From: Geothrix sp.
GTDB taxonomy: Bacteria > Acidobacteriota > Holophagae > Holophagales > Holophagaceae
DNA length: 64,000 nucleotides
Reading direction: 5' to 3'
Assembly (NCBI GenBank): GCA_030681515.1
Contig: JAUXSE010000039.1
Location: forward strand, 1 to 64,000
This document shows, in pieces, positions 35,877 to 39,841 of the stretch; within the stretch, counting starts at the first letter, position 1, and every line of letters starts with the position of its first letter. The translations under genes were made by a program, and so were the position numbers. The notes beneath the pieces are model-generated. The model did no database searches. It was not told the origin of the DNA and saw nothing but the letters and a program-made list of their open reading frames with translations.

Positions 35877-36146
35877 ATGAACCGATCGCTCTTCTGGACC
35901 ACCTTTTTCACGATCTTCCTCGCCGAAGTCGGGGACAAGACACAGCTGGCGGCGATGACGGCCACCGTGCGCAGCGGGCAGATCTGGACCGTGTTCCTCG
36001 CCGCCAGCGCGGCCCTGGTCTGTGCCACGGCCATCGGCGTGGCCCTGGGCGGGGTGCTGTTCAAGCACATCCCCGGGGTGGCCATCAAGTGGGTGGCCGG
36101 TTGCGCGTTCATCGCGGTGGGGCTGTGGGTCCTGATCAAGGGCTGA
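35877..36146 (+). CDS. UPF0016/GDT1-family cation transporter, half-size
   Basis: 89 residues from ATG 35877. One UPF0016 repeat: TM1 FFTIFLAEVGDKTQLAAM with the signature E17-x-G-D20-K-T, TM2 WTVFLAASAALVCATAIGVALGG and TM3 WVAGCAFIAVGLWVLI. Family members (MneA, Gdt1, TMEM165) move Mn2+ or Ca2+. Most have two repeats in one chain; single-repeat forms work as dimers or with a second half gene, which is not seen here. It sits just upstream of the copper-type RiPP operon but is separated by ~200 bases, so co-transcription is uncertain. Confidence 0.88.
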   Translation: MNRSLFWTTFFTIFLAEVGDKTQLAAMTATVRSGQIWTVFLAASAALVCATAIGVALGGVLFKHIPGVAIKWVAGCAFIAVGLWVLIKG

Positions 36147-36197: not shown

Positions 36198-36236
36198 TGT
36201 CACAATGCCCATCGCGCTCGCACCGAAAGGTGTAAC
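36198..36236 (+). promoter_or_regulatory. TGTMAC pair upstream of RiPP operon
   Basis: TGTCAC (36198-36203) and TGTAAC (36231-36236) each followed by aa. TGTAAC is a common -35 for copper-responsive ECF sigma factors. I find no convincing -10 (CGTC-type) at 16-17 bases, so the promoter assignment is tentative. Confidence 0.25.
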
Positions 36237-36343
36237 AACAGCACCTTGGTTCGAGCCGGCCGTGTCCGGTGAGGCCTTGTCCTGTTCCATCAACGGGGCC
36301 GCCGGGCGGCCCCCAGGCGCGGCCTCGGCCGCACGGAGAATTC

Positions 36344-36652
36344 ATGATCACGAAACTCATTGGTGCCGCCACCCTCTTCGCGGCCGGGTCGCTCATGGCC
36401 GGGCACACCCAGTCCCTCGGGGCCACGCCCGTGGACGCCTTCGGTGCCGAAGCCGCCCTTGCCTGCGCCGGATCCTGCGGCGGCAAGGAGACCAAGGACG
36501 CCAAGGCGGAAGGCAAGGCCCCCGCCAAGGCGAAGGACGGCTCCTGCGGCAAGGGCACCTGCGGCAGCAAGGACATGAAGAAGGACAAGAAGGAAGGCAC
36601 CTGCGGCAAGGACAAGAAGGCCGATGGCTCCTGCGGCAAGGATAAGAAGTAG
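36344..36652 (+). CDS. Bufferin-type RiPP precursor peptide (Cys-rich)
   Basis: 102 residues from ATG 36344 (cggag upstream). Signal peptide ~1-20 (LIGAATLFAAGSLMAG). The mature part has six Cys: C41 and C45 (CAGSC), then C68, C73, C87 and C97, four of them in repeated (D/E/K)G(S/T)CG(K/S) motifs spaced by Lys/Asp-rich linkers. This matches precursors of the BufA/HvfA type, in which a DUF692 (MNIO) enzyme converts Cys in xGxCG motifs to thiooxazole or oxazolone-thioamide groups that bind copper. The next two genes encode exactly those partners. The GC-rich repeat structure may expand or contract between strains. Which cysteines are modified cannot be told from sequence. Confidence 0.85.
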   Translation: MITKLIGAATLFAAGSLMAGHTQSLGATPVDAFGAEAALACAGSCGGKETKDAKAEGKAPAKAKDGSCGKGTCGSKDMKKDKKEGTCGKDKKADGSCGKDKK

Positions 36653-36670
36653 CTGCCCGGGAGGCACGCC

Positions 36671-37534
36671 ATGGCTCAGGACAGGTTCACCGGCGTGGGG
36701 CTGGGGCTTCGCCGCCCGCACCTCGAGGCGGTCGCGGGGCTGGAAGCCCACGGCGTGCCCTTCTGGGAGACCTGTCCTGAGAATGTGATCGGGGACGGGG
36801 GGCGCCATCATCGGATGGCCTGCGCGGTCCTCGATCGGGATCCGGTGCTCACCCACGGTTTGGCCATCTCCGTGGGCGGCTTCGATCCCTGGGACGGGGA
36901 GTACCTGCGCGATCTGGGCCGGTTTCTCATCCGCACGGGGACGCCCTGGCATTCCGAGCACCTCTGCTTCACGGGCGTGGATGGGAGCTGCCTTCACGAG
37001 CTGCTGCCGCTTCCCTTCACGCGGGAGGCGGCGCGGCACGCGATCGCCCGGGCGAAGGATCTCCAGACCCGTCTCCCCGTTCCGCTGCTCCTCGAAAACA
37101 TCACGTACTACGCCGAGCTCGGGCCTTCCGAAATGGATGAGGCCGACTTCATCGCCGGGGTGCTGGAGGGCGCGGACGTGGGCTGGCTGCTGGATGTGAA
37201 CAATGTCTACGTCAATGGGCTCAACTTCGGCTTCGATCCGAAGGCCTGGCTATCGCGGATGCCGCTGGACCGCGTCGCGCAGATCCACATCGCGGGCCAC
37301 AAGCGCTTCGGCGATATCACCGTGGATACCCACGGGGCGGAGGTCATTGACCCCGTCATCGAGCTGATGCAGTGGACCCTCGCGCGGCTGGGAAGACCCG
37401 TCCCGGTGCTGCTGGAACGGGATAACCACATTCCGGATCTCGACGCCCTGCTGGCGGAACGGGCGCGCCTCCAGCACGCCTACGACGCGGTGCTGGCGCC
37501 CGTCCTGGCCCCGGGCGGGGTGGGTCATGGCTGA
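36671..37534 (+). CDS. DUF692 multinuclear iron oxidase (BufB/MbnB-like)
   Basis: 287 residues. TIM-barrel MNIO family: VGLGLRRPHLEAV at the start, metal-site motifs WHSEHLCFTG, LLLENITYY, LLDVNNVYVN, IHIAGHK and VLLERDNHIPDL with the usual His/Asp/Glu ligands visible. Such enzymes use mixed-valent iron and O2 to modify precursor Cys residues. The gene follows the precursor by 18 bases and overlaps the next by eight, so all three are coupled. Length matches BufB proteins. Substrate is very probably the 36344 peptide. Confidence 0.93.
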   Translation: MAQDRFTGVGLGLRRPHLEAVAGLEAHGVPFWETCPENVIGDGGRHHRMACAVLDRDPVLTHGLAISVGGFDPWDGEYLRDLGRFLIRTGTPWHSEHLCFTGVDGSCLHELLPLPFTREAARHAIARAKDLQTRLPVPLLLENITYYAELGPSEMDEADFIAGVLEGADVGWLLDVNNVYVNGLNFGFDPKAWLSRMPLDRVAQIHIAGHKRFGDITVDTHGAEVIDPVIELMQWTLARLGRPVPVLLERDNHIPDLDALLAERARLQHAYDAVLAPVLAPGGVGHG

Positions 37535-38312
37535 GTCCCGGACCCTCGGCCTTCAGCGGGCCATGGCCTCCCTGGTGCTGGACGGGGACGAGGCCGTCTT
37601 CGAATCGGATCCCGGCGAGGCGGCCCGCCGCCAGGGACTGGGGGACGCGGAGCAGCGGTCCTTCCGGGACCAGGGCCCCGGGATGAGAACCTACCGCGAG
37701 CTGGCGCGCATGAGCCTCATCGAGCCGCTGGAGACCCTGTTTCCGGTGCTGAAGGCGCTCCTCGACGCCGCCGGCGCGTGGGATGGGTGCATTCAGGCCT
37801 TTCTCGACGCGCGGGCCATCCGGAGTTCCCACTACCGGGATATCGGGCCGGCCTTCCTGGGCTGGCTCGCGGCCACGGGCTGGGGCCAGGACCGCTGGCC
37901 CTTCCTGCTCGAACTGGCTCACGCCGAGATCCTGGAGGTGCTGGTGGCCCGCTTTCCCGATGCGGATCCTCCCGGGGAGGTCCATGCCGATCCGGGGCCC
38001 CAGGATCGGGTCGTCCTGGATCCGGCCACCCAGGTCGTGACCTACACCCATGCCGTCCACCGCGTCCGGGAGCAGGCACCGGTGCCCGAAGCCCGCCCCA
38101 CGCACCTCCTCGCCTTCCGCGACGGGGAGGGCGAGGCCCGGCTGCTGGAACTGACCCCGGCCACCGCGGCGCTGCTGGTCCAGGCCCAAACCCGGCCTCT
38201 TGCCGAAACTGTCGCTGCCCTGGGCCTGCCCGGCCTCACCCCGGCGATGAACCTCCTGCGCGACCTTCACCGCGACGGCGCCATCGCGGGATTCCACCGC
38301 CCCCTAGCCTGA
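37527..38312 (+). CDS. DUF2063 partner protein (BufC/MbnC-like)
   Basis: 261 residues, start overlapping the DUF692 gene by eight bases. The N-terminal DUF2063 domain (LGLQRAMASLVLDGDE, MSLIEPLETLFPVLKALLDA, SSHYRDIGPAFLGWLA) binds the precursor leader in MNIO systems. The C-terminal region (~140-250; LAFRDGEGEARLLELTPATAALL) resembles the winged-helix-like second domain of BufC. The protein forms a heterodimer with the iron oxidase. N-terminal sequence is otherwise rather divergent. Confidence 0.85.
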   Translation: MAESRTLGLQRAMASLVLDGDEAVFESDPGEAARRQGLGDAEQRSFRDQGPGMRTYRELARMSLIEPLETLFPVLKALLDAAGAWDGCIQAFLDARAIRSSHYRDIGPAFLGWLAATGWGQDRWPFLLELAHAEILEVLVARFPDADPPGEVHADPGPQDRVVLDPATQVVTYTHAVHRVREQAPVPEARPTHLLAFRDGEGEARLLELTPATAALLVQAQTRPLAETVAALGLPGLTPAMNLLRDLHRDGAIAGFHRPLA

Positions 38313-38321
38313 GAGGCCCCC

Positions 38322-38933
38322 ATGCTCCACCGTTCCCTATTGTCGGCTCTGCTGCTGGCCGTTCCCCTTATGGCCCAGAACCGCGTCTTCCGCGTGGACG
38401 ACAACCATACGGTGCTGGGCTTCAAGGCCTCGACCCTGCTCTTCGACGTGCCCGGCCGCTTCACGCGGTACAAGGCGGATATCCAGGGCGATCCCGCCTC
38501 CCCAGAAGGGGCGAAGGTCCGCGTGGACATCGAGGCCAGGTCCATCAACACCGCCAACGGGGGGCGCGACGAGCACCTCCGGTCCGCGGATTTCCTGGAT
38601 GTGGCGAAGCATCCGAAGATCACGTTCATTTCGCGGGAGGTCCGGAAGGAGGGCGACCGCCTGCTGGTTCGTGGAACCCTCACGATGCACGGGGTCAGCC
38701 GGGATCTCGATCTGTCCTTCGTGGCCGCGGAGGGCATGAACGGGGCCGGAGCCCACACCTGGTCCTACCGGGCCACCCTGCCGCTGGACCGGCTGGATTT
38801 CGGTGTGGGTGCAGACAGCGTGGCGGCCAAGATCAGCTTGAAGCGCCCGGTGGAACTGGACCTGCTGCTGGTGGGATTCTTCGAGGAACCGCCCGTCGCG
38901 GCCACGAAGCCCGCGGGCCGCGCCAAGAAGTAG
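38322..38933 (+). CDS. YceI-family periplasmic lipocalin-like protein
   Basis: 203 residues, nine bases after the DUF2063 gene. Signal peptide ~1-19. YceI fold: DDNHTVLGFKASTLLFDVPG, VDIEARSINTANGGRDEHL, SADFLDVAKHPKITF, RGTLTMHGVSRDL. YceI barrels bind isoprenoid quinones or similar lipids. The tail after ~185 is Ala/Lys-rich (AATKPAGRAKK). Location inside the bufferin-type operon suggests a redox or quinone role in the copper response, but this is inference. Confidence 0.9.
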   Translation: MLHRSLLSALLLAVPLMAQNRVFRVDDNHTVLGFKASTLLFDVPGRFTRYKADIQGDPASPEGAKVRVDIEARSINTANGGRDEHLRSADFLDVAKHPKITFISREVRKEGDRLLVRGTLTMHGVSRDLDLSFVAAEGMNGAGAHTWSYRATLPLDRLDFGVGADSVAAKISLKRPVELDLLLVGFFEEPPVAATKPAGRAKK

Positions 38934-38972
38934 CTTGCCGCGCCGGGGGCCCCCGCTGACACTGGCAGCGGC

Positions 38973-39590
38973 ATGACGGAACCCTCCCCGACTGAAACCG
39001 AGCTGCTTCAACGGGCCGCCTCCGGCGACTCGGATGCTTTCGGCGCGCTCGTCCAGCCCCACCTCGCCCTCTTCCACAACGGGATCCACCGCATCCTGGG
39101 CAATGCCGCCGATACCCAGGACGCGCTCCAGGACGCCCTCATGAGCATCCACCGGGACCTGCCCAGGTTCGAGGGCCGCAGCCGCTTCAGCAGCTGGGGC
39201 TACAAGATCTGCATCAACGCGGCGCTGATGGCGCGGCGGAGCCGCGTGAGGATCCACGATATGGAACGCTCCGAACCCCTGGCCCTGGGACCCTTCGATG
39301 ACCGCGGGCACCACATGGACCAGGATCGCGCGCCGGAATGGCAGGTCGAGGCCCAGGCGCACGATCTCGTGGAGCGGCAGGAGATGCGGGAATGCCTGAC
39401 GCGGGCCCTCGACGAGTTGCCGGACACGCACCGGACGGTTTTCGTGCTGAAGGATCTGGAGGACTGGGAGACGGAGGAGATCGCCCGGCACCTCCAGCTG
39501 ACGCCCGGGGCGGTACGGCAGCGGCTCCACCGGTCGCGAGTGCTGGTCCAGGCCCGTCTTCGCGCCCATGTCCTGGGAGGCCGCCCATGA
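38973..39590 (+). CDS. ECF-family RNA polymerase sigma factor
   Basis: 205 residues. Sigma region 2 (~30-95: FGALVQPHLALFHNGIHRIL, DTQDALQDALMSIHRDL, FSSWGYKICINAALM) and region 4 (~140-195: LDELPDTHRTVFVLKDLEDW, EIARHLQLTPGAVRQRLHRS). The linker is long and acidic. Its stop overlaps the start of the zinc-finger gene by ATGA, the usual sigma/anti-sigma arrangement. As the operon carries a copper-type RiPP, it is likely autoregulatory and metal-responsive, as for SigF-type factors next to bufferin genes. Confidence 0.93.
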   Translation: MTEPSPTETELLQRAASGDSDAFGALVQPHLALFHNGIHRILGNAADTQDALQDALMSIHRDLPRFEGRSRFSSWGYKICINAALMARRSRVRIHDMERSEPLALGPFDDRGHHMDQDRAPEWQVEAQAHDLVERQEMRECLTRALDELPDTHRTVFVLKDLEDWETEEIARHLQLTPGAVRQRLHRSRVLVQARLRAHVLGGRP

Positions 39591-39841
39591 GCTTCTTGCC
39601 CTCCTGCCATGAGGTCCAGACCGACCTCACCGAATACACCGAAGGCGCCCTGCCGTTCTCGCGAAGGGCGGGCATCTGGGTTCATCTGCTGTTTTGCCGG
39701 GTGTGCGCGGGATTCCTGCGCGGAATGAAGGCCCTCCCGGGCGTGGCCAAGGCGTCGCTCGCGGCGCCCACGGACGTCCCGGAAGCCGCATCCAGGGCCC
39801 TGGACGCGGTCCAGGCCGCCCTGAAGAAAGGGAAGCCCTAG
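39587..39841 (+). CDS. Short zinc-binding anti-sigma factor (ZAS-like)
   Basis: 84 residues, ATGA overlap with the ECF gene. H33-x3-C37-x2-C40 (HLLFCRVC) is the zinc-binding anti-sigma signature; C7 and H8 add possible metal ligands near the N-terminus. No transmembrane segment, so a soluble sensor. The family holds the sigma factor until thiols or metals change its fold. The size is about that of the sigma-binding domain alone. Confidence 0.85.
   Translation: MSFLPSCHEVQTDLTEYTEGALPFSRRAGIWVHLLFCRVCAGFLRGMKALPGVAKASLAAPTDVPEAASRALDAVQAALKKGKP

Follow-up and report, generated by a model that had tools for sequence, protein, structure and literature searches.

Described captophorin systems and the Geothrix operon

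Oxazolin, gonophorin and fontiphorin, which form a Lys-Cys group of ribosomally synthesized and post-translationally modified peptides (RiPPs) with EGKCG repeats, are called captophorins and represent thiooxazole metallophores made by a multinuclear iron oxidase (MNIO, DUF692) and a type 1 partner protein (PME1). Here, we compare such systems with a six-gene operon in a 64,000-nucleotide stretch of Geothrix sp. DNA (contig JAUXSE010000039.1, positions 1 to 64,000; called the window in the following). In Neisseria meningitidis, NMB2140-NMB2145 constitute an autoregulated operon, which encodes DoxX, three then-hypothetical proteins, the extracytoplasmic function (ECF) sigma factor rpoE and a zinc anti-sigma factor (ZAS) (PMC2893595). 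Experiments identified NMB2145 (C4/H30/C34/C37) as an anti-sigma factor whose function depends on its cysteines (PMC2893595). The Neisseria gonorrhoeae counterpart (NGO1948-NGO1943) makes gonophorin, and its NgoC protein corresponds to the structure 3DEE (PMC13097082). When these two reports are combined, the three hypothetical Neisseria proteins can be assigned as precursor, MNIO and DUF2063 protein. In Haemophilus influenzae, RpoE2/HrsE controls a matching DoxX cluster (PMC7907618), and the Buf1 operons of Caulobacter are under the control of sigma-F and its DUF1109 anti-sigma factor during metal stress (PMC3511200). On the Pseudomonas aeruginosa plasmid PaLo11 (CP075839.1), we found the gene order ECF, zf-HC2, precursor, MNIO, DUF2063 and DoxX.

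The six Geothrix genes are encoded in one direction between 36344 and 39841 (+ strand), and we consider it likely that they form a self-regulated, captophorin-like copper-sequestration operon. Gene content, order and coordinates agree with an initial annotation of this DNA, which had also proposed overlaps or gaps of 9-40 bases and an Acidobacteriota-like host. Read from the sequence, the gaps are 18 nt (precursor to MNIO), 9 nt (DUF2063 to YceI) and 39 nt (YceI to ECF), the overlaps are 8 nt (MNIO/DUF2063) and 4 nt (ECF/ZAS), and Geothrix belongs to the Holophagaceae (Acidobacteriota). The features of the locus are as follows:

36198-36224, + strand: putative ECF promoter-like element TGTCACA-N15-GCACC (-35/-10), with an A/T-rich stretch on its 5' side
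36295-36332, + strand: two GC-rich leader hairpins (36295-36302 with 36306-36313; 36319-36323 with 36328-36332)
36335-36338, + strand: Shine-Dalgarno sequence GGAG
36344-36652, + strand: RiPP precursor, 102 aa, with an N-terminal Sec-like signal (MITKLIGAATLFAAGSLMAG) and a Lys-rich core
36671-37534, + strand: MNIO (DUF692), RiPP-modifying multinuclear iron oxidase, 287 aa (PF05114, E 1.7e-83)
37527-38312, + strand: DUF2063 partner with RiPP recognition element (RRE), PME type 1, HvfC-like, 261 aa (PF09836, E 6.5e-12; PF22106 NGO1945_C, E 1.5e-10)
38322-38933, + strand: YceI-family protein with signal peptide, periplasmic and lipocalin-like, 203 aa (PF04264, E 6e-34, above cut-off)
38973-39590, + strand: ECF sigma factor, 205 aa (PF04542 and PF08281, above cut-off)
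39587-39841, + strand: soluble ZAS, 84 aa (C7-x25-H33-x3-C37-x2-C40)

A neighbourhood survey of DUF692/DUF2063 genes in Holophagae, which the initial annotation had suggested as a check, was carried out on 93 genomes of the class, with 47 genomes considered for the genus, and the neighbourhoods were read locus by locus. Here, we found an MNIO in 49 of the 93 genomes and the full set of six genes in 17 Holophagaceae loci, 16 of which (including the window) are in the genus (16 of 47 genomes) and one in another genus; variants occur elsewhere. A scan of named genomes returned nearly exclusively matches from Geothrix or other Holophagaceae, with MNIO identities of 62-88%, which places the window in Geothrix or in a close relative of it.

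The domains and the conservation of motifs and ligands support a secreted Cys-repeat RiPP that would be modified by MNIO and DUF2063 protein, together with an operon-borne ECF/ZAS pair. In analogy to the characterized systems, the precursor would be made with its Sec-like signal and presented to the MNIO by the DUF2063/RRE protein. Four-electron oxidation by the MNIO (-4 H per cysteine) would then convert cysteines of the (D/E/K)G(S/T)CG motifs into 5-thiooxazole-thiol groups, and the modified peptide, exported to the periplasm, would bind Cu(I) via its modified thiolates. YceI would fill the position that is held by DoxX in most such clusters. The ECF sigma factor may be retained by the cytoplasmic anti-sigma factor through the C-H-C-C zinc site; thiol oxidation, or displacement of the zinc by copper or another thiophilic metal, would break this site and free the sigma factor. 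Since the freed sigma factor would fire the promoter upstream of the precursor, we propose that the operon amplifies itself.

The Geothrix operon shares with its Neisseria counterpart a Cys-repeat precursor, MNIO, DUF2063 protein, ECF sigma factor and ZAS in a single operon, and the ZAS spacing is identical (C-x25-H-x3-C-x2-C). We also count as a likeness that the Neisseria operon is autoregulated with a very small regulon. However, Neisseria carries DoxX in place of YceI and EGKCG in place of xG[S/T]CG, its sigma factor also controls msrAB and its promoter reads GTMAGBWTT / CGTCTAAH with a 12-13 nt spacer. The oxazolin hvf system of H. influenzae similarly combines MNIO, DUF2063 protein and a Cys-repeat precursor under an ECF sigma factor with a small cytoplasmic ZAS-related anti-sigma factor (PMC7907618, PMC13097082, PMC13419390), but there the sigma/anti-sigma pair lies outside the biosynthetic operon, DoxX is present, YceI is lacking and the repeats are of the EGKCG type. 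The PaLo11 locus has EGSCG motifs and a linked ECF/ZAS pair (ZAS ligands C4/H30/C34/C37), whereas its ECF-ZAS genes precede the precursor, EAKCG motifs are mixed in and DoxX is found instead of YceI. Its MNIO (44.5% identity, 89% of the query covered) falls into the HvfB-like clade, unlike the window enzyme. Bufferins are likewise secreted Cys peptides modified by MNIO and DUF2063 proteins, and Buf1 operons are ECF-controlled (e.g. Caulobacter CC3252-CC3257, PMC3511200; for Buf2, PMC12452194). In contrast to Geothrix, Buf1 systems use a DUF1109/NrsF anti-sigma factor and DoxX, and Buf2 systems have CKG motifs and no sigma factor. Thus, the regulatory combination, which had initially been regarded as little described, is known from Neisseria (NMB2140-2145), H. 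influenzae (RpoE2/HrsE) and the P. aeruginosa plasmid, and because the Neisseria wiring is known already, the Geothrix operon should be seen as a variant in another phylum and not as a new kind of system. The same claim appears to hold for the YceI link, for which the literature search gave no match.

Sigma factor, zinc anti-sigma factor and upstream elements

ECF orthologues in linked operons of the genus are 75-86% identical. The gene directly downstream of the sigma factor encodes an H-x3-C-x2-C protein with an additional cysteine ligand upstream. The HxxxCxxC motif that had been predicted for the anti-sigma factor reads HLLFCRVC (H33, C37, C40), and C7 completes the ligand set as fourth member. 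It can be seen from 32 homologues that C7, H33, C37 and C40 are invariant, whereas H8 varies. A likeness of the ZAS to CopA in a PDB search (E 0.2 or worse) was taken as chance. Nearly all genomes of the genus also carry a conserved ECF paralogue of 53% identity (L092, G000:C1:183621-184199), which is followed by a ChrR-like anti-sigma factor (ZAS plus cupin) and preceded by a histidine-kinase-like gene.

In 30 of the 37 loci examined, which come from three genera, the spacer of the promoter-like element upstream of the precursor (TGTCACA-N15-GCACC) measures exactly 15 nt. When its own genome was searched with TGTCAC-N(16-18)-GCACC, the element at 36198-36224 was the single match, and genus-wide a match was located just upstream of the precursor in 28 of the 47 genomes. 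Matches away from the operon were no commoner than those of a reversed-pattern control and thus a wider regulon was rejected. By its sequence and distribution, the element resembles what one would expect of an ECF promoter with autoregulation and close to a single target. The element also stands upstream of the precursor in loci that lack a linked ECF/ZAS pair (L033, L075, L078-L082, L088), where it mostly begins with CGTCAC instead of TGTCAC.

Between this element and the precursor, the second of the two leader hairpins ends two bases before the Shine-Dalgarno sequence. In 27 distinct leader sequences, 94.9% of the cells were paired compared with at most 54% when the partners were slid, and compensatory changes were observed in three pairs versus 1.0 in shuffled controls. 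These data lend the hairpins modest support, because most pairs never vary or change on one side. A riboswitch-like pairing between the 3' side of hairpin 1 and the Shine-Dalgarno region was rejected (84% paired, compensatory changes no better than in shuffles). An Rfam search of the leader gave no match, and a known RNA family was discarded, the only sub-threshold match being located elsewhere on the opposite strand.

Several observations weigh against a self-regulated copper operon. Neither anti-sigma model reached its cut-off with the ZAS (NF052368 antisigmaE, 37.1 bits, cut-off 50, E 2e-9; PF13490 zf-HC2, 16.7 bits, cut-off 22.2, E 0.008). Seven checked species without a linked ECF sigma factor keep the element (six with CGTCAC, one with GCACT at the 3' part), and in such species the only close ECF sigma factor is the ChrR-linked paralogue, which was not accepted as an obvious driver because its own operon has no such element upstream. 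As the element is kept where linked ECF/ZAS genes are missing, the pairing of sigma factor and promoter is not proven. We recognized no known copper gene beside the operon, the precursor matched no family in Pfam and NCBIfam, and sigma-E of Neisseria was not induced by the oxidants tried (PMC2893595).

A different function would be that of an oxidative or thiol-stress operon of the envelope. Here, the modified peptide would not mainly buffer copper. Disulfide stress or oxidants of the hypochlorite type would be sensed by the ZAS, and YceI would act with the peptide to scavenge oxidants or protect the envelope. Such a function is in line with the induction of H. influenzae RpoE2, the driver of both msrAB and the MNIO/DoxX cluster, by HOCl and H2O2 (PMC7907618), with the control of msrA/msrB by Neisseria sigma-E (PMC2893595), with a ZAS ligand set equal to that of the redox sensor RsrA and with the core ECF-ChrR paralogue of the genus. 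However, the characterized MNIO-DUF2063 peptides have been reported to bind copper, and the lack of oxidant induction in Neisseria speaks against a stress function as well. Taken together, we regard a stress operon as rather unlikely and copper sequestration as the better account.

Precursor peptide and modifying enzymes

The precursor has six cysteines, five of which are located inside G[S/T]CG motifs (residues 43, 66, 71, 85, 95). The initial annotation had recognized the motif type correctly but counted four copies. When the core was shuffled (n=200,000), five motifs were never reached and the maximum was two. The N-terminus is hydrophobic (maximal Kyte-Doolittle value of 1.82 over 15 residues) and, as in captophorins, a Cys-rich peptide with N-terminal signal is encoded directly upstream of an MNIO. 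Next to this MNIO (PF05114) lies a DUF2063 partner with RRE, which is the captophorin arrangement of MNIO and PME1, and PF05114, PF09836 and PF22106 all score above cut-off. Among 17 tabulated precursors, Gly follows Cys in 98 of 101 cases and Ser precedes it in 84 of 101; the number of cysteines ranges from 4 to 8, and the N-terminus and x-G-S-C-G are kept.

The assignment as bufferin-type peptide proved too loose. None of the models for Buf1 (DUF2282), Buf2 (BufA2) and HvfA matched the window precursor, so that Buf1/Buf2 membership was rejected, and the HvfA/oxazolin models NF050137 and NF050188 gave 0 families up to E 10. By its motifs, the precursor appears to resemble the EGKCG group. In more distantly related precursors from Holophagaceae, the same C-terminal ending SCGKGSCGS (KDASCGKGSCGS) is combined with DGKCG and HKCG repeats, and this combination bridges the window family and the EGKCG class. 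In other Acidobacteriota sampled, Buf2-like Cys-Lys precursors were found (CKGKNSCKGKGGC). The precursor family is lineage-specific and seems to be new. In another Holophagaceae genus (g9; L034, L049, L053), an open reading frame 8-15 nt upstream of the MNIO of an MNIO-DUF2063 pair encodes a leader much like that of the window (MITKLIGIATLFAA...) and an Arg-rich core (RRCAGVPRCGGRRCAG...) with 10-12 Cys in the listed reading frames. These precursors lack the TGTCAC promoter element and are possibly another type of MNIO substrate.

For the MNIO, comparison with 3BWW yielded an E-value of 2.9e-48, but the scores for the equivalogs HvfB (NF003818, 254.4 bits, cut-off 360) and bufferin BufB (NF050167, 243.4 bits, cut-off 310) stayed below cut-off, as did the HvfC score of the DUF2063 partner (NF050145, 98 bits, cut-off 142). 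In an alignment of 58 MNIO sequences, H62, H97, E142, D175, N178, H206, D219, H221 and E249 are among the invariant residues. According to the VDTHG motif, D219/H221 probably correspond to D242/H244 of HvfB, and the alignments suggest that N177 or N178 is the likely counterpart of HvfB N175, substitution of which abolishes activity (PMC13419390). A quick tree placed the MNIOs of Holophagaceae in a clade of their own, apart from the Buf1/Buf2 types and from an HvfB-like clade (support 0.997) with 3BWW, a Rhodocyclales MNIO and the P. aeruginosa plasmid MNIO; this placement is provisional because the 3BWW row was pieced together from aligned stretches.

Because Ser or Thr and not Lys precedes the cysteines and because the MNIO forms its own clade, one may consider a metallothionein-like Cys/Lys peptide that stays unmodified, or a different modification of the precursor (another heterocycle, a metal other than Cu). 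The missing HMM match of the precursor, the separate MNIO clade and the HvfB and BufB scores would fit such a scenario. In contrast, MNIO, DUF2063/RRE protein and precursor stay together across the survey, and the Pseudomonas precursor with EGSCG and EAKCG motifs passes NF050137 (HvfA family). Moreover, in vitro the fontiphorin enzyme pair FonBC accepts Ala, Arg or Thr in the position before Cys, and the residue after it has to be small (PMC13097082); this tolerance makes an xG[S/T]CG substrate chemically plausible. We therefore consider an unmodified or differently modified peptide improbable and retain a captophorin-like modification as the preferred assignment.

YceI and the assembly of the operon

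Within the genus, close homologues of the window YceI occur almost solely in the six-gene operon, in the operon of an MNIO paralogue or beside an ECF/ZAS pair, and in the other Acidobacteriota sampled no YceI match was detected near an MNIO. A literature search retrieved no paper that names YceI together with DUF692, and the main text of the MNIO survey paper, the part covered here, mentions neither YceI nor Acidobacteriota. Thus, the link of YceI to an MNIO operon appears to be undescribed, and what seems new at this locus is YceI in the usual DoxX position, the lineage-specific precursor and the conserved promoter-like element. YceI probably protects or services the envelope. As a tentative extension, to which we assign a low probability, YceI might act in Holophagaceae as a dedicated, hitherto unrecognized partner of copper peptides made by MNIOs and, co-inherited with ECF-ZAS, substitute functionally for DoxX; the two-hairpin leader might add translational control to an operon-specific ECF promoter, and this promoter might still work in species without the linked sigma factor. 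In two loci (L079, L080), an FKBP-type peptidyl-prolyl isomerase with signal peptide is encoded downstream of DUF2063 in the YceI position, and at an MNIO paralogue locus (L047, 8016-8417, counted with the MNIO on the + strand) a thioredoxin-like secreted protein is encoded between DUF2063 and YceI.

The composition of the operon varies. YceI is retained in the absence of ECF and ZAS in three loci, ECF-ZAS without YceI was found in the same genus (L052) and in another one (L048, L051), and several loci consist of precursor, MNIO and DUF2063 only. A yceI-ECF-ZAS module without MNIO is present in one genome (G041, L095), and in two others the ECF-ZAS pair lies away from the MNIO (G014 and G031, with yceI nearby in G031). 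These variants suggest that the operon consists of two modules, one for the captophorin and one with the regulators and yceI, which are often joined. That the two were joined by chance, the yceI-ECF-ZAS module controlling itself alone, is improbable: the separate modules just listed and the common MNIO operons without ECF-ZAS would allow it, but gaps of 9 and 39 nt, the joined order kept at 17 loci, the three loci in which ECF-ZAS is joined although YceI is missing and a promoter-like element that recurs solely upstream of the precursor argue against it.

Just upstream of the operon (35877-36146), a half-size gene of the GDT1 family (divalent cation/proton antiporter) is located, and this synteny is kept in many Geothrix loci. 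In relatives, a DCC-type thiol protein is often encoded between the GDT1 gene and the precursor, but it is absent from the window.

Geothrix is a genus known for metal reduction. With the self-regulated captophorin-like operon, the ECF-ZAS-controlled captophorin circuit known in Neisseria and Haemophilus would reach into environmental Acidobacteriota, and YceI becomes a candidate for an accessory protein of this circuit. Among the cultured Geothrix species, some have the linked sigma/anti-sigma pair and YceI and others lack them, so that the roles of the regulator and of the accessory protein can be compared directly, and the inducer of such circuits, copper or oxidized thiols, becomes testable with a single promoter reporter.

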